A stretch of DNA of 36,981 nucleotides from an uncultured Bacteroidota bacterium. Lineage in GTDB: Bacteria; Bacteroidota; Bacteroidia; B-17B0; Aurantibacillaceae. The stretch lies in the NCBI GenBank assembly GCA_903834765.1, contig CAILKE010000060.1, positions 1 through 36,981 of the forward strand, read 5' to 3'. The position numbers were made by a program, and so were the translations under genes. Shown here piece by piece: positions 4,061 to 13,166 of this stretch (position 1 is its first letter; the number at the start of each line of letters is the position of its first letter). Under the pieces are notes generated by a model that did not search any database, was not told the DNA's origin, and saw only the letters and a list, made by a program, of their open reading frames with translations.

Positions 4061-4426
4061 TTAGGTTAATTTAATTCCAATAATTCCAATTAATATTAAT
4101 AGGAAGAAAAAAAGATTAGCATATGAAAAGGATTCCTTTAAAATAATTACATCAGCTATTTTTACTCCTACTAAAGCAATTGCCATCCATACTGCAAAAG
4201 CAGCTGAGGCTGATATCTTTTGCATAGCTTTTGAGAAGAAAAAAATATTGGTCACACCAAACAAAACATATAGCAATAAGGGAAATAATAACAGAAAGCC
4301 CTCCTTCGTAGAAAATATTTGAAGCCAGTTTGTTTTAATAAGTTTCTTAAACTCCAAATATTTTAAACTGTATATCCAACAAATTTCAGCTATAGCGGCA
4401 ATAAATATATAAGTCCAAGAAATCAT
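4061..4426 (-). CDS. Small multidrug resistance (SMR)-like transporter, 121 aa
   Basis: A four-helix inner-membrane protein. The first helix carries the conserved glutamate within AEICWIYSLKY (Glu14), which in SMR proteins couples proton entry to export of cationic compounds. The third helix has ASAAFAVWMAIALVGVKI, matching the SMR signature where the antiparallel dimer packs. The length is slightly above the usual 105-115 aa owing to a longer loop between helices 1 and 2. In the family the roles are export of quaternary ammonium, guanidinium or polyamines; the specificity here cannot be read. It is followed after three bases by the DUF4833 gene. SMR proteins often work as gene pairs, but no partner is present here. 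Confidence 0.75.
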   Translation of the reverse strand: MISWTYIFIAAIAEICWIYSLKYLEFKKLIKTNWLQIFSTKEGFLLLFPLLLYVLFGVTNIFFFSKAMQKISASAAFAVWMAIALVGVKIADVIILKESFSYANLFFFLLILIGIIGIKLT

Positions 4427-4594: not shown

Positions 4595-5491
4595 CTATTT
4601 CAATATTAACTGGCTAACAGTTATATTTCTTAAACGTTTACGAGGCTCTAATTCGCTTTCGTAGACAACTTTAACGCCATCACCTAAAGCAATTTCAATA
4701 TCACGAATATCTTTCATCAATCGTATCATACCACCTATTTCAATTGAAGCTGCATGGTCTGAACCCCACATAGCTCTATCAAGTGTGTAATGTCTTTCTA
4801 AAAAGCAAGCCCCAATAGATACAGCAGCTAATGAAGTAGCTAAGCCTGTTTCGTGTCCAGAATAACCTATTGGATTCATAGGATACATTTGTTTTAAGGT
4901 CTTTATCATATGTAAATTTAATTCAGTTGTTGGGCAAGGATATGACGAAGTAGAATGTGCAATTAATAAATTATCAGTGCCTAAAAATTCTATGGCATTT
5001 TCAATTTCATTTAAAGTAGACATGCCAGTAGATAATATAATAGGTTTGCCTGTTGCTTTAACTTTTTCTAATAGCGCATAATCAGTTAAAGAAGCAGATG
5101 CCATTTTATATAATACCGGATTAAACTGTTCGATAAAGTCTACCGAAGGTTGATCCCAACAAGAAGCAAACCAATCTATCCCTTTGTGAATACAGTATTG
5201 ATTAATTTCTGAATACTCATCTATGCCAAACTCAATTTTTCTTTTATAATCAATGTAGGTCATTTGCCCCCAAGGTGTTTCCCTCAATTTGTTCCATTGG
5301 TCTTTTGGCACACAAATTTCAGGTGAACGCTTTTGAAACTTAACTGCATCGCAGCCCGCTTCAACAGCACCATCAATAAGTTTTTTTGCAATGTCGATTG
5401 AACCATTATGATTAATCCCAATTTCTGCAATTACGTAGCAAGGTTCGTTGCTTCCGATTTTGCGACCGTTTTTTAAAGTTATGTTGTTCAT
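4595..5491 (-). CDS. NeuB-family ulosonic acid synthase, SAF domain absent
   Basis: Predicted to condense phosphoenolpyruvate with an aldose to give a 3-deoxy-2-ulosonic acid, as sialic acid synthases do. The TIM-barrel domain is complete: AEIGINHNG (Glu23), KFQ (Lys51), Lys129, HSTSSYP (His179), GYSGHETG (His213) and LERHYTLDR (His234), followed by GSDHAAS. These match the PEP and metal ligands known in the family. The protein is 298 aa and ends soon after RKRLRN. The C-terminal antifreeze-like SAF domain of classic NeuB (about 345 aa), which puts an arginine into the partner's active site, is missing. It is the last gene of the operon, with its ATG overlapping the phosphatase stop by four bases. 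The substrate is unknown. Confidence 0.85.
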   Translation of the reverse strand: MNNITLKNGRKIGSNEPCYVIAEIGINHNGSIDIAKKLIDGAVEAGCDAVKFQKRSPEICVPKDQWNKLRETPWGQMTYIDYKRKIEFGIDEYSEINQYCIHKGIDWFASCWDQPSVDFIEQFNPVLYKMASASLTDYALLEKVKATGKPIILSTGMSTLNEIENAIEFLGTDNLLIAHSTSSYPCPTTELNLHMIKTLKQMYPMNPIGYSGHETGLATSLAAVSIGACFLERHYTLDRAMWGSDHAASIEIGGMIRLMKDIRDIEIALGDGVKVVYESELEPRKRLRNITVSQLILK

Positions 5492-6000
5492 TTTTTTGGT
5501 TTTTTTAAATTAATAATTAGCTCTGCAAATTCTCTAAAGCAACCATAGCCTCCATTTTGGCCGCATATATAATGTACTTGTTTTTTAACGATATCCATTG
5601 CATCGGCCGGGCAAGCAGTTAAACCAACTTGTTGCATAATTTCTAAATCGTTAACATCATCGCCTATATAAGCAATCTCATCTGAACTTATGTTTCTTAT
5701 TTTTATAATTTCGTTTAGTACAAGGAGTTTATTTTTTATCCCCATATGCAACTCCTTAATATTTAATTTTTCAGCACGTTTAGCAACCGATGGAGATAAC
5801 TCTCCTGTTATAATTCCCGTTTCAACTTCGGCAAGTTTTAAAAGTCGCTCTACGCCCATTCCATCTCGAATCGAAAAACGTTTTAGTATTTCTCCATCAG
5901 CTCCGTAGTAAACTCCATTATCTGTTAACACCCCATCCACATCGGTAAGTAGAAGTTTAATTTTTTTTGCTTTGTTATTTATTTCTCTTTTTGATATCAT
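5488..6000 (-). CDS. KdsC-like HAD phosphatase, 170 aa
   Basis: Predicted to remove the phosphate from an ulosonic acid phosphate, as KdsC does for Kdo-8-phosphate, in the cytoplasm. HAD motifs: DVDGVLTD (nucleophile Asp20, acid Asp22), IITGE for motif II, the lysine region following, and GDDVND for motif IV. The C-terminal NGGYGCFREF segment is characteristic of the KdsC tetramer group. I start at the ATG at 6000, seven bases after the start of a frame that otherwise overlaps the SDR stop by 23 bases; the shorter form gives the normal KdsC length. Coupled by a four-base overlap to NeuB. A KdsC-like enzyme implies that NeuB uses a phosphorylated aldose, unlike bacterial Neu5Ac synthesis, which uses free ManNAc. 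Confidence 0.85.
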   Translation of the reverse strand: MISKREINNKAKKIKLLLTDVDGVLTDNGVYYGADGEILKRFSIRDGMGVERLLKLAEVETGIITGELSPSVAKRAEKLNIKELHMGIKNKLLVLNEIIKIRNISSDEIAYIGDDVNDLEIMQQVGLTACPADAMDIVKKQVHYICGQNGGYGCFREFAELIINLKKPKK

Positions 6001-6004
6001 AAAT

Positions 6005-6808
6005 TTATACAGCTGTCCAGCCACCATCTACTATTAAATTTGCACCTGTCATATAAGCAGATGCATCGCTTGCTAAAAACACAACGGCACCTTTATAATC
6101 TGTAGGTTTAGCCATTCTGCCTAATAAAGTTTTTTTAGAATAATTTTCCGTGAAATAATCATCTTGATTATTTTCTACCCCTCCAGGTGAAAGTGTGTTT
6201 ACACGCACTCCTTTATTACCCCAGTACGCAGCTAAAAAACGAGTGAAATTTATTACGGCCCCTTTTGTGGTAGGATAAGCAGGCGATTTATAAAAAATTT
6301 GATTTCCATCTTTATCTTTATAAATAGATTGATCTGGACCTACAATGCCGTAAGTAGATGCCACATTAATAATACTGCCTGAACCTTGCATAGCCATTGG
6401 TGTACCAAAAATTTGAGAACACAAAAACACTCCGTTTACATTTACCTTCATTGATTTTTCAAACATCTCTAAAGGATAATTTTCGAACATAGATTGATGT
6501 CCTGCCAGTGCAGGGTTTTCAAACATATCGTTAATGGCAGCATTGTTTATTAATATATCAATATATCCAAATTCAGAAATTATTTTATCGCGTGCATCTT
6601 CTAATGACGCAATGTTTGTAACATCAAGTTCTAATCCTAAATGATTTTTCCCTAGCACAGTAGCTTTCTCCTTACATTTATTGCCATCAATATCGCAAAG
6701 CACCACATTAGCTCCTGCTTCAGCCAGTGCCTCGCAATGATGAAATCCTATCAAACCGCAAGCACCAGTTACAATAGCTGTTTTATTTTTTAAGGAGAAT
6801 AAATTCAT
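6005..6808 (-). CDS. Short-chain dehydrogenase/reductase, 267 aa
   Basis: A classical SDR oxidoreductase. It has the Rossmann motif TGACGLIG at residues 14-21 and an acidic residue after the second strand (CDID, about 38-41, favouring NAD). NNAA follows near 88-91, with catalytic Ser151 and Tyr178-x3-Lys182 (YPTTK). It ends with the usual VDGGWTAV. An unusual insertion of about 15 polar residues (IYKDKDGNQIFYKS) separates the serine from the tyrosine and may shape the substrate pocket. In context it probably oxidises a hydroxyl to a carbonyl that the aminotransferase encoded just upstream can aminate, or reduces a keto intermediate; this is inference. The start codon directly abuts the aminotransferase stop. 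Confidence 0.85.
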   Translation of the reverse strand: MNLFSLKNKTAIVTGACGLIGFHHCEALAEAGANVVLCDIDGNKCKEKATVLGKNHLGLELDVTNIASLEDARDKIISEFGYIDILINNAAINDMFENPALAGHQSMFENYPLEMFEKSMKVNVNGVFLCSQIFGTPMAMQGSGSIINVASTYGIVGPDQSIYKDKDGNQIFYKSPAYPTTKGAVINFTRFLAAYWGNKGVRVNTLSPGGVENNQDDYFTENYSKKTLLGRMAKPTDYKGAVVFLASDASAYMTGANLIVDGGWTAV

Positions 6809-8158
6809 TTAGTTTTTTATAATATTTAGTTTAGGTTTAATATTGTAGTTGCTTACTTTTCTAAACACCATTTCTAATGGCTCGCCTTTTAATTGTTCGG
6901 TTACATTTTTTTCTTCAACCACTTTTTTAAGTAGTTGTAATACTTCATGATAAGCTTTTAATGTATAAGCAATGTCTTCATCACTATGCATAAAGCACAT
7001 GTTATGAAAACCGGCCCATAAAATACCTCGCTTTATCATTTCTTGTTGCACAAAAGATTTTAAAATAAGTGGGTCTCCGGCAGAGGCATCAAAAGTTAAC
7101 ATACTCCGACAGTTATACCCTACGCATCGTGTGTAGGAATCTATACCTAAGTCTTGAGCAATTTTATTATAACCATCTTTTAATAGTTTTCCTTTAGCAT
7201 CTAGTACAAACGAAACATTTTTTTCTTTCATTTCTGTAATAGTTGCTATTGCAGCAGCCATTGATAATGCCTCGCCTCCAAATGTGGTAAAAAAGAAAAC
7301 ATCTTTTTCAAACAATTGCATTACATCTTTTCTGCCAGTCAATAAAGAAATAGGCATACCGTTTGCAAATGCTTTTGAGTATACAGCTAAATCGGGTGTT
7401 ACGCCAAAATACTCTTGAGCGCCGCCTAAGGCTATACGGAAACCTGTCCACATTTCATCAAAAATTAAAAGCGTACCGTTAGCTTTACAAACCTCTTGTA
7501 GCTTTTGAAGAAAATTATCTTTAGGTGCTTCAAAAATAAATGGCTCTAAAATTACACAAGCTGTATCTTCATCAATTGAATTTATTACTGATTCGATATT
7601 ATTGTAATCAAAGGTATTGGTAAGGTCTTTTACTTCTTGTGGGATTCCTTTATCTCTGCTTGTAATACCAATATACCAATCATGCCAACCGTGGTACCCG
7701 CAACATAAAACTTTACTACGTCCTGTAAAAGCACGAGCTACACGCACAGCTGCACTGCAAACATCTGCACCTGTTTTACTAATTCTGATTGATTCAGCAT
7801 TAGGAATAATTTCATGTACCAATTCACTAAGCTCTACTTCAAGTTCATGCATTAATGAAAAAGTTATACCATCTTTTAATTGGTTTATAATAGCTTGGTC
7901 TACTTTATCATAGCAATATCCTAATGAAATAGGACCAATGCCCATGTTGTAATCTATAAACTCATTTCCATCAACATCCCACACATGCGCATCTTTGCCC
8001 CTCTTTAAATATTTAGGCGCAAGGCCTTTCATAAATTGCCCAGGACCTTTAGCCAAAGTTTGTGTTACCGGATGCATTATTTTTATGGCTCTTTCGTATA
8101 ACTCGTCTGACTTTATTATATCAGGGTAATTCGCATTAAATTCTATTTTGTTGCTCAT
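6809..8158 (-). CDS. Class III PLP aminotransferase (GSA aminotransferase-like), 449 aa
   Basis: A fold-type I PLP enzyme of the glutamate-1-semialdehyde aminotransferase branch. Residues seen: GYHGWHDW (about 154-161, ring stacking), EPFIFEAP (205-212), FDEMWTGFR with Asp234 for the pyridine nitrogen, and YSKAFANG with the Schiff-base Lys262. True heme-pathway HemL is about 430 aa and is encoded away from sugar genes. Here the operon setting points to amination of a keto- or aldehydo-sugar. Most amino-sugar aminotransferases for sialic-like acids (PseC, LegC) are DegT-type instead, so a class III enzyme in this role is unusual. The gap to the transketolase C-subunit stop is five bases. Confidence 0.8.
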   Translation of the reverse strand: MSNKIEFNANYPDIIKSDELYERAIKIMHPVTQTLAKGPGQFMKGLAPKYLKRGKDAHVWDVDGNEFIDYNMGIGPISLGYCYDKVDQAIINQLKDGITFSLMHELEVELSELVHEIIPNAESIRISKTGADVCSAAVRVARAFTGRSKVLCCGYHGWHDWYIGITSRDKGIPQEVKDLTNTFDYNNIESVINSIDEDTACVILEPFIFEAPKDNFLQKLQEVCKANGTLLIFDEMWTGFRIALGGAQEYFGVTPDLAVYSKAFANGMPISLLTGRKDVMQLFEKDVFFFTTFGGEALSMAAAIATITEMKEKNVSFVLDAKGKLLKDGYNKIAQDLGIDSYTRCVGYNCRSMLTFDASAGDPLILKSFVQQEMIKRGILWAGFHNMCFMHSDEDIAYTLKAYHEVLQLLKKVVEEKNVTEQLKGEPLEMVFRKVSNYNIKPKLNIIKN

Positions 8159-8163
8159 GATGA

Positions 8164-9084
8164 TTATATTTTTGAAACTGTTTTTTTATACAATTCTTTA
8201 ATTATTTTTTCGCTCATTTTTTCTCCGGTAAATCCTTCATTGTTTAACACTTCTGAAAGTAACCCAGGTTTAAACCAACGTTCATTAAGTGCCAATGGTA
8301 AAACATTTGCTGTAAGTTGGTGCTTTAATAATAACTCGGCAATAATGCTGTAAAGTCCACCAGTTAAAAAATGATCTTCGATAGTAACTAGCATTTGAGA
8401 ATTCTTTACTGCGTCTAAAATTGCTTTTTCATCAATAGGCTTAAGCGTTCTTACATTTATTAATCCAACAGATAAACCTTCGCTTTCAAGTAATTGTTTT
8501 GTTTTTAATGTTTCTTCAAACAACATTCCGTAAACTAATAGTGTTACATCTGTTCCGTTTGAAATAACTTCTGCTTTTCCGATTTCAAAATTTTTATCGT
8601 GTTGAAAATCTGATTTGCGAATGTTTACACGAACATATGATGGATGCGGAGACGTCCAAATATGTGACAAAGCATATAACATATCTTGTTCATCAGCCGG
8701 ACAAAAAACCTGCATGCCCGGAATACCACGCATTAATGAAACATCTTCTATAGCTTGATGAGTAGGTCCATTTCCGTCTGATAAAAAACCCGGGATAAAA
8801 CCACTTAGTTTAACAGGCAAATTAGCAATGCCCACATCGGTGCGAATAAATTCGAAAGCTCGTAGTGTAAGAAAAGTTGCCAAGGCATGTACCACCGGAA
8901 TTCTACCTCTTAATGCAAGTCCCGCGGCTGCGCCAATCATGGTTTGTTCTGTAATACCTGTGTCAATAAATCTTTCTTTCAAAACGCTTGGCAAGTTGCG
9001 AATGAGTGCACGGTTCTCTGCAGTCATTACAACAAAGCGTTCATCTTCTAAGGCTATTTTTTTTATTAATTCTTCGTAATTCAT
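8164..9084 (-). CDS. Transketolase C-terminal subunit, 306 aa
   Basis: This is the pyrimidine-binding plus C-terminal domain half of a split transketolase. The catalytic glutamate that activates thiamine diphosphate is Glu46 in DTGITEQTMIGAAAGLA. GPTHQAIED near residue 127 follows, then the C-terminal domain with MLVTIEDHFLTGG. It must pair with the N-subunit encoded one base upstream. Split transketolases occur in bacteria both as housekeeping enzymes and in biosynthetic clusters. Its location inside a sugar acid operon suggests it supplies or lengthens the aldose or ketose skeleton by moving a two-carbon ketol unit. The alternative, dehydroxyacetone-type transfers or a DXS-like reaction, cannot be excluded. 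Confidence 0.85.
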   Translation of the reverse strand: MNYEELIKKIALEDERFVVMTAENRALIRNLPSVLKERFIDTGITEQTMIGAAAGLALRGRIPVVHALATFLTLRAFEFIRTDVGIANLPVKLSGFIPGFLSDGNGPTHQAIEDVSLMRGIPGMQVFCPADEQDMLYALSHIWTSPHPSYVRVNIRKSDFQHDKNFEIGKAEVISNGTDVTLLVYGMLFEETLKTKQLLESEGLSVGLINVRTLKPIDEKAILDAVKNSQMLVTIEDHFLTGGLYSIIAELLLKHQLTANVLPLALNERWFKPGLLSEVLNNEGFTGEKMSEKIIKELYKKTVSKI

Positions 9085-9085
9085 A

Positions 9086-9943
9086 TTATCGTACAGTTAG
9101 TGTTTCTGATTCTAATTCGGTTTTAGCTTCACCATGTAATTCTCTAACTAAGCTTGTTATTTCATCGTGCTGAAAATTACAAAACCATCTATCAGCTCTC
9201 GCCTCGATGCTTGGCAAACCTTTACCACGTATAGTATCAGCAATAATTACATTTGGTTTATCTTTACTATAAGGGAGTGTTTTAAACGCTTTATCTAATT
9301 GTGTGAAATCATGTCCGTCAATTCGTTGAACATTGCAACCAAAAGCTTCAAATTTTTGAACTAAGGGTTCAAGTGGAATTAATTCTTCAGTAGCTATATT
9401 AGCTTGAAATTTATTTCTATCAACCACAAAGGTTAGGTTACTAAGTTTAAAAGCACTGGCAACCATTACTGATTCCCAAACAGAGCCTTCATTTAGTTCG
9501 CCATCGCCAGTAATTACTATAATCTTATTGTTTTGCTTTTTCATCCTACAATCTAAAGCTACGCCTATAGCCACAGCAGGAAGATGACCTAAAGAGCCCG
9601 AATGAAATTCAACACCCGGTATATTACGATTTGGATGCCAGTAAATAGAATCAATAGTTTTAAGATGATTTTTTAATCGATCTTTTTCTATTAAACCTAA
9701 CTCAACAAAAGTGCCGTACAAAGCTGGTACATCGTGTCCTTTAGATAAAAACAGATAATCCCTTTCTTCATCCTTCAAATTGCCTTTATGCAGATTTAAA
9801 AAACTCTGATATAAGTATACAATCAAATCAGTGCAAGATAAAGATGCACCAATAAAGCAACCTCCATCAGTTGACATATTTATAATATGTTCTCTTACTT
9901 TAAAAGCGGTTTCTTTAAGTTTATTTATTTTTTCTTCTGTCAT
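9086..9943 (-). CDS. Transketolase N-terminal subunit, 285 aa
   Basis: This is the diphosphate-binding half of a split thiamine-diphosphate enzyme. The ThDP motif is complete: GDGELNEG starting at Gly146, with the closing Asn177 of VDRNKFQ, binding Mg and the cofactor diphosphate. LSKGHDVPALY (about 67-77) and HSGSLGHLP (about 114-122) are typical transketolase blocks. It forms the active enzyme with the C-subunit encoded next; only one base separates the two genes. There are five bases between the SpsF-like gene stop and this start, so expression is shared across the cluster. The donor and acceptor sugars are unknown. Confidence 0.85.
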   Translation of the reverse strand: MTEEKINKLKETAFKVREHIINMSTDGGCFIGASLSCTDLIVYLYQSFLNLHKGNLKDEERDYLFLSKGHDVPALYGTFVELGLIEKDRLKNHLKTIDSIYWHPNRNIPGVEFHSGSLGHLPAVAIGVALDCRMKKQNNKIIVITGDGELNEGSVWESVMVASAFKLSNLTFVVDRNKFQANIATEELIPLEPLVQKFEAFGCNVQRIDGHDFTQLDKAFKTLPYSKDKPNVIIADTIRGKGLPSIEARADRWFCNFQHDEITSLVRELHGEAKTELESETLTVR

Positions 9944-9948
9944 TTTGT

Positions 9949-10749
9949 TTACCTATTTGGTTGTTTATAGTTCACTGTTTTTAATTCGTTTATATGGTTT
10001 TTATACCAATATTCGCCCAAATATTTGTTGTTTATTTTCGAAATATCTAGTCTATTTTCTAATAAATTTAAAATGTCATATAAACCAAAGTGTGGGTTTT
10101 GCTTATAGAGTTCATCATAAACATTTTTTATAAATTCATAATCTTCGGGATAGTCAATTGTCCAACGATGAGTAGTAGAATAATCTTTACCGGTTTCCCA
10201 TAATACACTTCCTATGCGGAATAAGGATGGGTTTTCCCATATATAAGGAGTTGTGTGTTCTCTTTCAAATTGTTTCGCACTTTTTTTCCAAGCATTTTCA
10301 ATGGCTGAAAAAGTCATAATCTCAACATCATTTCCATCCGGATAAGATGCAGGGTGCAGATTACTTACATAATCATACACACCTAAATTATCCATAAAAA
10401 AACCAATCACTTTATCTATAATTTTTGAATCAATCAATGGGCAATCAGATGGTATTTTTAAAATCACATCTGCCGTATAATATAAGGCTGTCTTATAATG
10501 TCTGTCTAATAAATCAGTAGGGTGTCCACGAAAACAAAAAATATTTTCAGCATCGCATAACTCTTCAATATTATTGTCTGCTTTATCCGTTGTTGTAGCG
10601 ACTATAACAGTTCCTGAAAGTTTTGCACTTTTTACACGCTCAACCATTCTAACTAATAAGGACTTACCTGCTAAAGGCAGCATTACCTTACCCGGTAATC
10701 GCGTTGAGTTTGTGCGCGCCTGTATAATAGTTATTATTTTCATGGCCAT
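9949..10749 (-). CDS. SpsF/KdsB-like cytidylyltransferase, 266 aa
   Basis: Nucleotidyltransferase of the SpsF type, related to CMP-Kdo synthetase. It opens with IITIIQARTNSTRLPGKVML, the nucleotide-binding loop with the conserved RxxxxRLPGK. Then come VIVATTTDKADN, FRGHPTDLLDRHY, and KIPSDCPLID supplying acidic metal ligands. HRWTIDYPEDYEF near residue 192 is diagnostic of the SpsF subgroup. Expected role: activate the ulosonic acid made by NeuB as its CMP ester. SpsF relatives vary in substrate, so activation of the operon's product is inferred from context. Two in-frame ATGs (10749 and 10743) could both serve as start. The gene follows the GT-B gene by five bases. Confidence 0.8.
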   Translation of the reverse strand: MAMKIITIIQARTNSTRLPGKVMLPLAGKSLLVRMVERVKSAKLSGTVIVATTTDKADNNIEELCDAENIFCFRGHPTDLLDRHYKTALYYTADVILKIPSDCPLIDSKIIDKVIGFFMDNLGVYDYVSNLHPASYPDGNDVEIMTFSAIENAWKKSAKQFEREHTTPYIWENPSLFRIGSVLWETGKDYSTTHRWTIDYPEDYEFIKNVYDELYKQNPHFGLYDILNLLENRLDISKINNKYLGEYWYKNHINELKTVNYKQPNR

Positions 10750-10754
10750 ATTAA

Positions 10755-11786
10755 TTAAATAGTAGCGATAACCCTATTGTGCTCTTTTAAAAAATCAACT
10801 CCGCTTCCTTCGTAATAAATATAATTTCCGCATATATCTGCAATGTTTTTTGCAGAAGTACCGTTGTTTTGAATCGGCATTAATCTATTCAACTCTTCTA
10901 CATCAAAATAAGAATGGACTTTTTTACCTAAAGCAATACCAACAAACACAACGGTAGAGTATTGGGTAATTAATTCATCACAATTTGCAATCATGTGGTT
11001 TGTGTTTCCATCAGTATAAATTAACGTATTTGAAGGCGAGTTTTTTTTAATTTCAGAAATAGCTCTATCTTTTTTCTCGTTAGGATGAAGTTTAAAAATC
11101 AAGGGTCTTCCGTTTGCTATTTTAACTGTTTGTTTAATAAATTTTACCCGTTCATCTGAACGAAAGGTTTCGCGAATATCAGAGGTAGCTACCAAAACAT
11201 AATCCTTATAAGGAAAATCATTTTCTAAATGCTTCTTTATATTATCATAATTAGGGATTCCAGTAACAGCAACTTTAGCAATATCAGTTCCTTTTTCAGC
11301 TATATATTTTTTATAACCATCTGATCCCGCACAATAAATATCACATAGATTAGATGCCCCGTTTAAAGCGGTACTCATAGCTAAAACAGGGTGTAGTTTT
11401 AATTTTTTAACTACCTTGGCAAGAAAATTGTATTTATCAATCATTCCTTCCTGAATCCAAATTTTTTTAATTTCATTTAGGCTTTTAGGAATTACCATAT
11501 CTGTACAAACAACTGCCAAATCGTATTTATTATTATATACCTTACCCTGATAATCGTTTTTAAGATTATTTTCTGCAAGATATTTATCGGCTTGATGCTT
11601 TGATTCTCCAGCAAAAATTGTGTGGTTTAGCACACCTGTCTTTACTACTGTTTCAAATGCTGGGTTACTAGAAAATATTTGAGAAAAATAGCAATCAAAG
11701 TCTGCATCCAAAAAAGTAGATATTTTATGCATTTGAGTTGTTTGATTTGCAGTCCCTATTATAAAAAATATTTTCTTTTTTTGCAT
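10755..11786 (-). CDS. GT-B sialyltransferase / CDP-glycerol transferase-like protein, 343 aa
   Basis: Probably the transferase that uses the CMP-sugar made by this operon. No family is certain. The features seen match bacterial sialyltransferase-type GT-B enzymes: a QEG tripeptide at 112-114 where those enzymes have (D/E)(D/E)G, the HP motif in IFKLHPNEKKD (234-235), which contacts the CMP phosphate, and YSTVVFVG (ST at 277-278), which matches their S(S/T) motif. The same HP and ST layout occurs in CDP-glycerol glycerophosphotransferases and in KpsS-like capsule enzymes, so those are the alternatives. No membrane segment is visible. First gene of the operon; about 600 bases of AT-rich sequence precede it. 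No convincing promoter was found. Confidence 0.65.
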   Translation of the reverse strand: MQKKKIFFIIGTANQTTQMHKISTFLDADFDCYFSQIFSSNPAFETVVKTGVLNHTIFAGESKHQADKYLAENNLKNDYQGKVYNNKYDLAVVCTDMVIPKSLNEIKKIWIQEGMIDKYNFLAKVVKKLKLHPVLAMSTALNGASNLCDIYCAGSDGYKKYIAEKGTDIAKVAVTGIPNYDNIKKHLENDFPYKDYVLVATSDIRETFRSDERVKFIKQTVKIANGRPLIFKLHPNEKKDRAISEIKKNSPSNTLIYTDGNTNHMIANCDELITQYSTVVFVGIALGKKVHSYFDVEELNRLMPIQNNGTSAKNIADICGNYIYYEGSGVDFLKEHNRVIATI

Positions 11787-12387: not shown

Positions 12388-12840
12388 TTACCAGACCTTA
12401 ACTTTCATAACAACTTTTTTAACCTTACTGGGGACATTAATTTTTATGCCCGGTTTATGTAAATCCTCTGGAAACAAAACAGCAAATTGCGTTTGTGTTA
12501 TTTTTACAAAAGAACAAGTATCATCATACAAAGTGTAATCATTGTCAATATCATATTCCTTAGAAGGCATTTGATTAATTAAAGGAATTGTTCCTATTAA
12601 TTCTTCACCTGAAATTATATATTGTAAATCAATATATTTTTTATGCGCTTCTAATTTAGCATCTGCATCATTTTTGGTTTCATATTCTTGAACTATCGCA
12701 AAAAGATTGTCTTCCTCGATAACATATTTTCCGTTTGCAAGTTTAGAAAAATCTGTTTGTTTTATATACATAAAAGCCTTTTTAAGCAAGGGGTTTATGT
12801 TTTCATAGAGCACTGAGTTTTCAATTTTATCAAAAATCAT
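12388..12840 (-). CDS. YhcH/YjgK/YiaL family protein (possible sugar-acid anomerase), 150 aa
   Basis: This is a cupin-like small cytosolic protein. I start at the ATG at 12840 (MIFDKIEN) because family members begin with MIF- or MII- at this point; the frame also extends to a TTG at 12876. Conserved features are EAHKKYIDLQYIISGEE (about residues 66-82), supplying metal-binding Glu and His, and FPEDLHKPG (about 128-136) with a further His. In Enterobacteria a member (NanQ/YhcH) belongs to the sialic acid regulon and speeds anomerisation of Neu5Ac. Its presence 0.6 kb upstream of a NeuB-type operon, on the same strand, is suggestive, but it appears to be a separate transcript. Confidence 0.8.
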   Translation of the reverse strand: MIFDKIENSVLYENINPLLKKAFMYIKQTDFSKLANGKYVIEEDNLFAIVQEYETKNDADAKLEAHKKYIDLQYIISGEELIGTIPLINQMPSKEYDIDNDYTLYDDTCSFVKITQTQFAVLFPEDLHKPGIKINVPSKVKKVVMKVKVW

Positions 12841-13166
12841 TGGATGTGTGTTAAGTATTAACTTTTCTATTTTCAACTAAGCTGCTTCTCAGATAACAAA
12901 TAAAATTTCAAAAGTAAAAAAATTAGTAAGAAACTAAATAGAGATATCAAGAAAATATATTACTTATTAATTATATAACTTAAGCGTAATATTGGCAAAA
13001 AAACATCATGTAAGTAATAACAATATTCAAAAAATCATTTCACCATTTGATAATTTATAGAAAAAAGAGTAGATTTATGAAACGAAAAAGAACTAAAAAA
13101 CTAAGACTATAATTAAGTTAGCTGCAATTGCAAGAAACCGTTATAAGCAAATTAATAATTAAATTT
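12841..13166. other. Intergenic region between divergent genes
   Basis: AT-rich spacer between the YhcH-family gene (minus) and the Uma2-like gene (plus). It should hold both promoters. I see no repeat or hairpin of note. Confidence 0.45.

Follow-up and report, generated by a model that had tools for sequence, protein, structure and literature searches.

The closest described system to the genes considered here is the biosynthesis of 3-deoxy-D-glycero-D-galacto-non-2-ulosonic acid (KDN) in Bacteroides thetaiotaomicron, which reportedly proceeds through a KDN-9-phosphate synthase and the phosphatase BT1713. A second point of reference is the pathway to 8-amino-3,8-dideoxy-D-manno-oct-2-ulosonic acid (8-amino-Kdo, or Kdo8N), which uses KdnA and KdnB; the enzyme classes that make this sugar in Shewanella are presumably an iron alcohol dehydrogenase and a DegT-type aminotransferase. 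Here we analyze an eight-gene operon in a 36,981-nucleotide stretch of DNA (hereafter, the window) that represents contig C60 of a Bacteroidota genome totaling 3.6 Mb. The eight genes are densely packed on the minus strand and are transcribed, from position 11786 to position 4595, in the order GT-B fold protein, SpsF-like cytidylyltransferase, transketolase N-terminal half, transketolase C-terminal half, class III aminotransferase (AT3), short-chain dehydrogenase (SDR), KdsC-like phosphatase, and NeuB-family synthase.

Like the B. thetaiotaomicron pathway, the operon pairs a NeuB-family synthase with a KdsC-like phosphatase that carries the residues E56 and K67; unlike that pathway, it adds the SDR, transketolase, aminotransferase, SpsF, and GT-B genes. 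Its likeness to Kdo8N biosynthesis is one of logic – an ulosonic acid would be oxidized and then transaminated to yield a sugar that bears a carboxylate and a terminal amine – but the operon employs an SDR and a class III aminotransferase rather than an iron alcohol dehydrogenase and DegT, and has a transketolase in addition. SpsF, a class III aminotransferase, and NeuB also co-occur in legionaminic and pseudaminic acid loci and in SpsF-AT3 loci, one of which has the two genes fused, yet no PseB/LegB or DegT family match is present among the eight operon genes, in keeping with the original prediction of a distinct pathway to a cytidine monophosphate (CMP)-activated amino-ulosonic acid. The operon also differs from the N-acetylneuraminic acid pathway: its NeuB falls below the N-acetylneuraminate synthase cut-off (255.7 versus 399.65 bits), and its GT-B protein, though NeuC-like in fold, lacks the NeuC motif and misses the Pfam cut-off. 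Finally, the operon transketolase shares the two-subunit layout and the thiamine diphosphate (ThDP)-binding residues of split-chain transketolases of the 6yak type, but has lost four residues (S385, H461, D469, and R520) that two housekeeping split enzymes keep.

We found no paper in the openly licensed literature that ties this cluster to a sugar, a possibility that the original prediction had left open, nor one that describes the combination of genes, and no published description of the route proposed below was found. The sole match for transketolase, nonulosonic acid, and gene cluster together concerned Clostridium butyricum, and there the terms are used apart from one another; in a Legionella O-antigen locus, a class III aminotransferase lies beside a cytidylyltransferase among otherwise different enzymes. 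The passages that we drew on are from PMC12342839, PMC3694923, and PMC7845648.

A conserved operon with a specialized transketolase

The boundaries of the eight genes are as originally called, and so for the most part is their spacing, which had been described as gaps of 0-7 bases or 4-base overlaps. Consecutive genes from GT-B through SDR are separated by 5, 5, 1, 5, and 0 bases, and the phosphatase and NeuB genes overlap by 4 bases; the possible exception is a 23-base overlap of the phosphatase and SDR genes, which arises if the former starts at 6027 and becomes a small gap if an alternative in-frame ATG at 6000 is used. The family assignments likewise stand, with Pfam backing seven of the eight genes and an AlphaFold model placing the remaining product, the GT-B protein, in its fold. 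A scan for promoters and terminators was uninformative (33 promoter-like sites versus 44 in shuffles).

To place the operon in a wider context, as had been suggested originally, we sought the same gene set in 395 Bacteroidota genomes, including the window's own. AT3 orthologs at 53-74% identity are present in 53 of the 395 genomes, with all remaining matches at or below 41%, and every one of these 53 genomes also encodes NeuB and GT-B proteins of the operon type. NeuB (at least 59% identity) and GT-B occur together in 132 genomes, NeuB alone in 7, and GT-B alone in 5, a count that excludes G107 and G368, in which the NeuB matches reach only 41%. Gene order was compared in two sets: the "named loci", which are the best 80 of a longer list of matches, and the "other loci", which are the 52 AT3 loci outside the window. 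These sets (loci L035-L086 and L180-L259) derive partly from the same genomes, so locus counts are not independent, and some loci end at contig ends. In 66 of the 80 named loci and 33 of the 52 others, the seven genes for GT-B, SpsF, the two transketolase halves, AT3, SDR, and NeuB keep a colinear arrangement on a single strand, and the same order minus the transketolase is found in a further 2 and 12, respectively. Carriers among the best 80 named loci include Hymenobacter, Chitinophaga, Mucilaginibacter, Puia, Arcicella, Pseudarcicella, Taibaiella, and metagenome-assembled genomes of Ignavibacteria. Because the gene order recurs across Bacteroidota loci, we reject a chance neighborhood: the eight-gene operon is real.

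The recurring gene set exceeds these eight genes, as it includes an SMR-family gene and, often, a fatty-acid-hydroxylase-family gene. The latter is found in 73 of the 80 named loci and in 38 of the other 52, in 108 of 110 cases with its start no more than 2 kb from that of NeuB. Its nearest model, for ornithine lipid hydroxylase OlsE, gives 101 bits where the cut-off is 475. There is none in the window, and we do not regard the hydroxylase as an essential member because the window's genome has only a 30% identical relative, located elsewhere.

The distribution of the transketolase argues that it is a genuine pathway member, a conclusion that we consider well supported. The 53 AT3 genomes fall into 40 with the split transketolase, 12 with a single-chain form, and 1 with neither; in no case are both present (Fisher p 5e-11 for exclusivity within AT3 genomes, relatedness ignored). 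Twelve of the 53 have the colinear cluster without a transketolase, and an additional genome, G389, has the single-chain form in the place of the split one. Across all 395 genomes the single-chain form (E <= 1e-100) is present in exactly 12, namely G389 plus 11 of the 12 whose cluster lacks a transketolase, and it is found in 0 of the 342 AT3-negative genomes and 0 of the 40 with the split form. Where intact, its open frames are 654-665 amino acids long, with 38-40% identity to the N-terminal half from the window. Thus 52 of 53 AT3 genomes have one of two specialized transketolases, as expected from the original prediction that the enzyme belongs to the pathway. The two genes also stay together: transketolase and AT3 are no more than 4 kb apart on the same strand in all 38 of the loci in L035-L086 that hold both, and this proximity is kept in four genomes of family f30 in which the cluster genes are otherwise dispersed (L055, L061, L064, and L081).

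It had been noted at the outset that the transketolase pair might be the only housekeeping transketolase of the genome, situated here by chance. We reject this explanation because the window's genome encodes another transketolase N-terminal half on contig C17, at 33% identity; that contig ends just after it, and the C-terminal half is not in view. A further, more distant transketolase-like match was present in 45 of 46 genomes searched. In G019, the AT3 genome with neither specialized form, another pair of transketolase N-like and C-like open reading frames (ORFs) is located at L124:7885-9134, beside an HldE-like ORF and nucleotide-sugar genes as judged by eye.

Alignment with E. coli TktA gave a more specific picture of the enzyme. 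Eight residues that we take to bind ThDP or act in catalysis (H66, H100, D155, E160, N185, E411, F434, and H473) are kept in every specialized enzyme aligned, both split (35 of 35) and single-chain (11 of 11). In the same enzymes, without exception, S385, H461, D469, and R520 are lost, whereas all four are kept in seven of seven housekeeping transketolases (that of E. coli, four further single-chain, and two split enzymes); the C-terminal half in the window follows this pattern, having lost the equivalents of S385, H461, D469, and R520 and kept E411, F434, and H473. These counts exclude split transketolases outside the length limits and the broken L152, and R358 was left out of the split-form comparison since it aligns to the point where one chain ends and the other begins. 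S385, H461, and R520 (E. coli numbering) are presumably ligands of the substrate phosphate. Because the same residues are lost in two mutually replacing forms of the enzyme, the pattern points to a shared substrate that would carry no phosphate at that site. Both specialized forms additionally have an arginine at C-half position 29, where the seven housekeeping enzymes have lysine (three), serine, or asparagine.

A synthase and phosphatase shared with a second group of genomes

The NeuB protein of the operon has 298 amino acids and is without the usual C-terminal SAF domain, and its 45 orthologs, extracted with matches below 80 bits ignored, have a median length of 297. Other SAF-less copies exist: G035 has a second NeuB copy (L165:9310-10206) with no cluster genes adjoining, and similar second copies are present in G047 and G333. 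In G219 (L159:7288-10214), NeuB adjoins a cytidylyltransferase-phosphatase fusion and an SDR (43%). The G219 locus also contains glycosyltransferase-like ORFs, and no transketolase match was seen within 11 kb.

The neighboring phosphatase bears on what NeuB makes. It has E56, R64, and K67 of the B. thetaiotaomicron enzyme, of which E56 and K67 presumably separate that enzyme from Kdo-8-phosphate phosphatase; Lu et al. are said to have put forward these two residues in 2009 as markers of KDN-9-phosphatases, and solved variants of the B. thetaiotaomicron phosphatase are altered at exactly these positions. In our alignment E56 and K67 are present in 96 of 96 cluster phosphatases, that of the window included, and in 8 of 8 from a second group of genomes described below (family f19), while E. 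coli KdsC has arginine and threonine. For this count we took 108 loci with matches of at least 100 bits, excluded four with stops and L174, and counted 95 plus the window, together with the 8 from f19. The KDN-9-phosphatase model was the best for five of six phosphatase relatives scanned, although the six scores (139-166 bits) are all below its cut-off. We conclude that the product of NeuB and the phosphatase is probably KDN or a closely similar compound.

The f19 genomes allow the synthase to be considered apart from the aminotransferase. They encode a NeuB at 61-68% identity, with an adjoining phosphatase in nine of nine loci fetched, but are without an AT3 ortholog; an SpsF ortholog is absent in five of five and an SDR ortholog in the one tested. 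In a comparison of 124 cluster-type NeuB sequences with 8 from f19, 93 columns are fixed alike and 1 is fixed differently. The groups exclude matches below 300 bits, sequences with stops, short sequences, and four loci with other contexts, and the group of 124 includes two loci from genomes in which no AT3 was found. Such similarity suggests that the nonulosonic 9-phosphate formed by NeuB is probably identical in the two groups and, because NeuB is nearly unchanged where AT3 is lacking, that SDR, transketolase, and AT3 probably act after it.

This is not the order that was proposed originally, in which transketolase builds an aldose, SDR and AT3 oxidize and aminate it, and NeuB then condenses the product with phosphoenolpyruvate (PEP). 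All of the enzyme classes for that order are present, and NeuB does need an aldehyde substrate. A synthase that changes so little with or without AT3, a phosphatase with KDN-9-phosphate markers, and a transketolase that has lost its sugar-phosphate residues all speak against it, and we have given up this order as most improbable.

What takes the place of SDR and AT3 in family f19 may be seen in the genes near its GT-B homolog (40-41% identical to that of the window). In five of five loci fetched, it is accompanied by an HpnL-like membrane protein, a NeuA/PseF-like cytidylyltransferase, an iron alcohol dehydrogenase, and a DegT-type aminotransferase, families that were assigned on L272 and extended to the other four loci by similarity. 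Neither the iron alcohol dehydrogenase nor DegT was matched at E <= 1e-20 in any other locus of the comparison. There thus appears to be one NeuB/phosphatase core with two oxidation-amination modules, either iron alcohol dehydrogenase with DegT or SDR with transketolase and AT3. The five-gene set at L272:6194-11410 is a possible 9-amino-KDN module in its own right.

The f19 arrangement also speaks for another reading of the operon, in which the KDN skeleton stays whole, the SDR makes a ketone or aldehyde, and AT3 converts it to 8- or 9-amino-KDN, with the transketolase serving separately, for example to make a small, two-carbon-extended substituent. In f19, amination seems to be the work of an oxidase/aminotransferase pair with no further enzyme, and oxidation followed by transamination is the logic of 8-amino-Kdo. 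What this reading does not supply is a needed role for the transketolase, a specialized form of which is carried by all but one of the AT3 genomes and is near AT3 in every one of the L035-L086 loci that hold both genes, and we therefore think it unlikely.

A proposed route through chain shortening

We tentatively propose, at a little short of an even chance, that the product of the operon is a CMP-activated amino sugar acid, formed when KDN is oxidized, shortened, and aminated, and that the operon also puts this compound to use. NeuB would condense mannose-6-phosphate with PEP to give KDN-9-phosphate, from which the phosphatase, a member of the haloacid dehalogenase (HAD) superfamily, would free KDN. 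The SDR would then oxidize the penultimate hydroxyl, at C8, to form 8-keto-KDN, and the two-subunit transketolase would take C9-C8 as a two-carbon ketol, leaving a C7 aldehyde. AT3 could aminate this terminal aldehyde to 7-amino-3,7-dideoxy-hept-2-ulosonic acid, which would have the L-arabino configuration if the starting sugar is D-mannose-6-phosphate. SpsF would make the CMP sugar, and the GT-B protein would transfer it to another molecule, possibly a lipid. The order of the genes in the operon is approximately the reverse of these steps. Substrates, reaction order, product, and acceptor are all inferred here, and we rate the membership of the transketolase much higher than the full mechanism.

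One point in favor of this sequence of steps is the fit between 8-keto-KDN and transketolase. We take C4-C9 of KDN to keep the D-manno configuration, in which case, by the symmetry of mannitol, the end of 8-keto-KDN, C9H2OH-C8(=O)-C7-C6-C5, would have the D-fructose configuration. Because D-fructose configuration is that of the classic transketolase donor, the tail of 8-keto-KDN, as deduced from D-mannose, should suit the enzyme. The best NCBIfam model for the SDR is NF006070 (186 bits versus a cut-off of 279), of the gluconate 5-dehydrogenase type, and gluconate 5-dehydrogenases oxidize the penultimate carbon. Class III aminotransferases, for their part, often act on terminal aldehydes. Alignment of AT3 with E. 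coli HemL, whose fold family it shares, revealed that the pyridoxal phosphate (PLP) lysine is kept and that the mobile gating loop, presumably the mark of glutamate-1-semialdehyde aminomutases, is missing; we therefore reject AT3 as an aminomutase, and it also scores below the HemL cut-off. Distant AT3 relatives are only 31-41% identical, and one such locus was inspected: L092:8981-11077 is an SpsF-AT3 fusion ORF beside NeuB-family, DegT-like, and PseB-like genes (the last two judged, as were the neighbors generally, by eye), in a locus that looks pseudaminic-type.

The same enzymes could in principle lengthen the chain, with C9 oxidized to an aldehyde, two carbons added by transketolase, and the new ketone aminated by AT3 to an undeculosonic acid. 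Transketolase can run in that direction and some class III aminotransferases accept ketones. The nearest models and solved relatives of the SDR, however, are mostly secondary-alcohol enzymes, and such a sugar is not known; we consider chain extension very unlikely.

If chain shortening is correct, the operon represents both a new sugar and a new role for transketolase. The length of an ulosonic acid chain would not be fixed at the NeuB step, as a thiamine enzyme could cut it back later, and such shortening is not what genome-based prediction of sugars would lead one to expect. It would also account for a gene set common to Hymenobacter, Chitinophaga, Mucilaginibacter, and Ignavibacteria, and would predict a zwitterionic sugar acid in the envelopes of those bacteria. 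The broader form of the proposal – a widespread pathway in which a dedicated transketolase cuts a free keto-nonulosonic acid to a C7 amino sugar acid that becomes a CMP sugar, with one conserved KDN core finished by different oxidation-amination modules – we advance more tentatively still, as a possibility.

A number of observations weigh against the proposal. The transketolase reaction is deduced from residues and pathway logic. With regard to its membership, G019 has AT3 and neither transketolase form, a frameshift or stop disrupts the single-chain gene of its sister genome G361, and two f30 genomes with dispersed genes (G125 and G133) have transketolase on one contig and AT3 on another. The negative results for f19 cover AT3, SpsF, and SDR, the split transketolase not having been searched for in those genomes. 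For the KDN core, the best NCBIfam model for the phosphatase, NF058599 (KDN-9-phosphatase), gives 160 bits and so misses its cut-off of 180; 23 of the 80 named loci have no phosphatase beside the cluster, some of them being cut by contig ends; and a search of the window's genome for a type I mannose-6-phosphate isomerase gave none, with a control that was positive in just 2 of 14 genomes. The SDR falls short of every visible cut-off, its nearest solved relatives are a general SDR and a KduD-type enzyme, and the specificity of SDRs is not easily deduced from their sequences. The SMR homolog, which lies beside the cluster in 68 of the 80 named loci, does so in no more than 7 of the 52 others. 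Lastly, the best structural matches of the GT-B protein are UDP-GlcNAc 2-epimerases and NeuC (Z 16-19; 18.9 for the NeuC structure 5zlr), above transferases (Z about 15).

This last point, a NeuC-like fold that had not been recognized previously, raises the prospect that the GT-B protein is an epimerase supplying NeuB with N-acetylmannosamine or its 6-phosphate, in which case the product would be a sialic acid derivative. Several features of the protein are at odds with that role. The motif SGGxxEE, which we take to be that of NeuC-type epimerases, is absent, and the only Pfam match, to Epimerase_2, is below threshold. Instead, QEG, KxHPNE, and S(T/S) are invariant in 36 of 36 aligned sequences, and the GT-B gene sits with a CMP-transferase-like gene in all five f19 loci fetched. 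We give an epimerase little credence. Bacterial sialyltransferase-like GT-B proteins presumably have the motifs (D/E)(D/E)G, HP, and S(S/T); against this standard EG, HP, and S(T/S) are present, yet the first motif starts with Q and the epimerases rank first structurally. The structural matches also include transferases that use CMP or CDP – a polysialyltransferase (5wc6, Z 15.1) and TagF (3l7j, Z 15.1). Because EG, HP, and S(T/S) are invariant and SGGxxEE is absent, we tentatively favor a CMP-sugar transferase. As for the acceptor, a glycolipid is possible, a speculation based on there being one transferase, often accompanied by an SMR protein and a lipid-hydroxylase-like gene.

Features of the window

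The genes of the operon are listed below, together with the SMR-family gene that may end the set.

Table 1. Coordinates and supporting evidence for the operon genes and the adjoining SMR-family gene in the window
Feature	Position	Strand	Evidence
GT-B fold protein, proposed CMP-ulosonic acid transferase	10755..11786	-	AlphaFold model (predicted local distance difference test, pLDDT, 91), structural matches, invariant motifs
SpsF-like cytidylyltransferase (CMP activation)	9949..10749	-	PF02348 (CTP_transf_3), 107.7 bits; KdsB-type NCBIfam matches all below cut-off
Transketolase N-terminal half, ThDP domain	9086..9943	-	PF00456 (Transketolase_N), 85.5 bits; nearest solved by sequence 6yak (split-chain transketolase)
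Transketolase C-terminal half	8164..9084	-	PF02779 and PF02780; Transket_pyr, 99 bits
Class III aminotransferase (AT3), PLP, without aminomutase gating loop	6809..8158	-	PF00202 (Aminotran_3), 158.5 bits
Short-chain dehydrogenase (SDR), gluconate-5-dehydrogenase-like	6005..6808	-	PF13561 (adh_short_C2), 165.8 bits; YxxxK present
KdsC/KDN-9-phosphatase-type HAD phosphatase	5488..6027	-	HAD Hydrolase_3, 38 bits; NF058599, 160 bits (cut-off 180)
NeuB-family synthase without SAF domain	4595..5491	-	PF03102, 257 bits; nearest solved by sequence 6ncs, 290 amino acids
SMR-family small membrane protein, possible end of gene set	4061..4426	-	PF00893, 42.8 bits

Just upstream of the operon, at 12388-12876 on the minus strand, is a YhcH/NanQ-like gene that scores 113 bits with a sialic acid anomerase model whose cut-off is 160. 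We rejected this gene as a member of the set, as a match is found in 0 of the 80 named loci and 1 of the 52 other loci. Downstream of the operon, two ORFs at 1188-2593 on the minus strand are glycosyltransferase-like by eye, and the ORF at 749-1045 on the same strand consists of near-identical repeats of approximately 28 residues and is probably a tandem DNA repeat.

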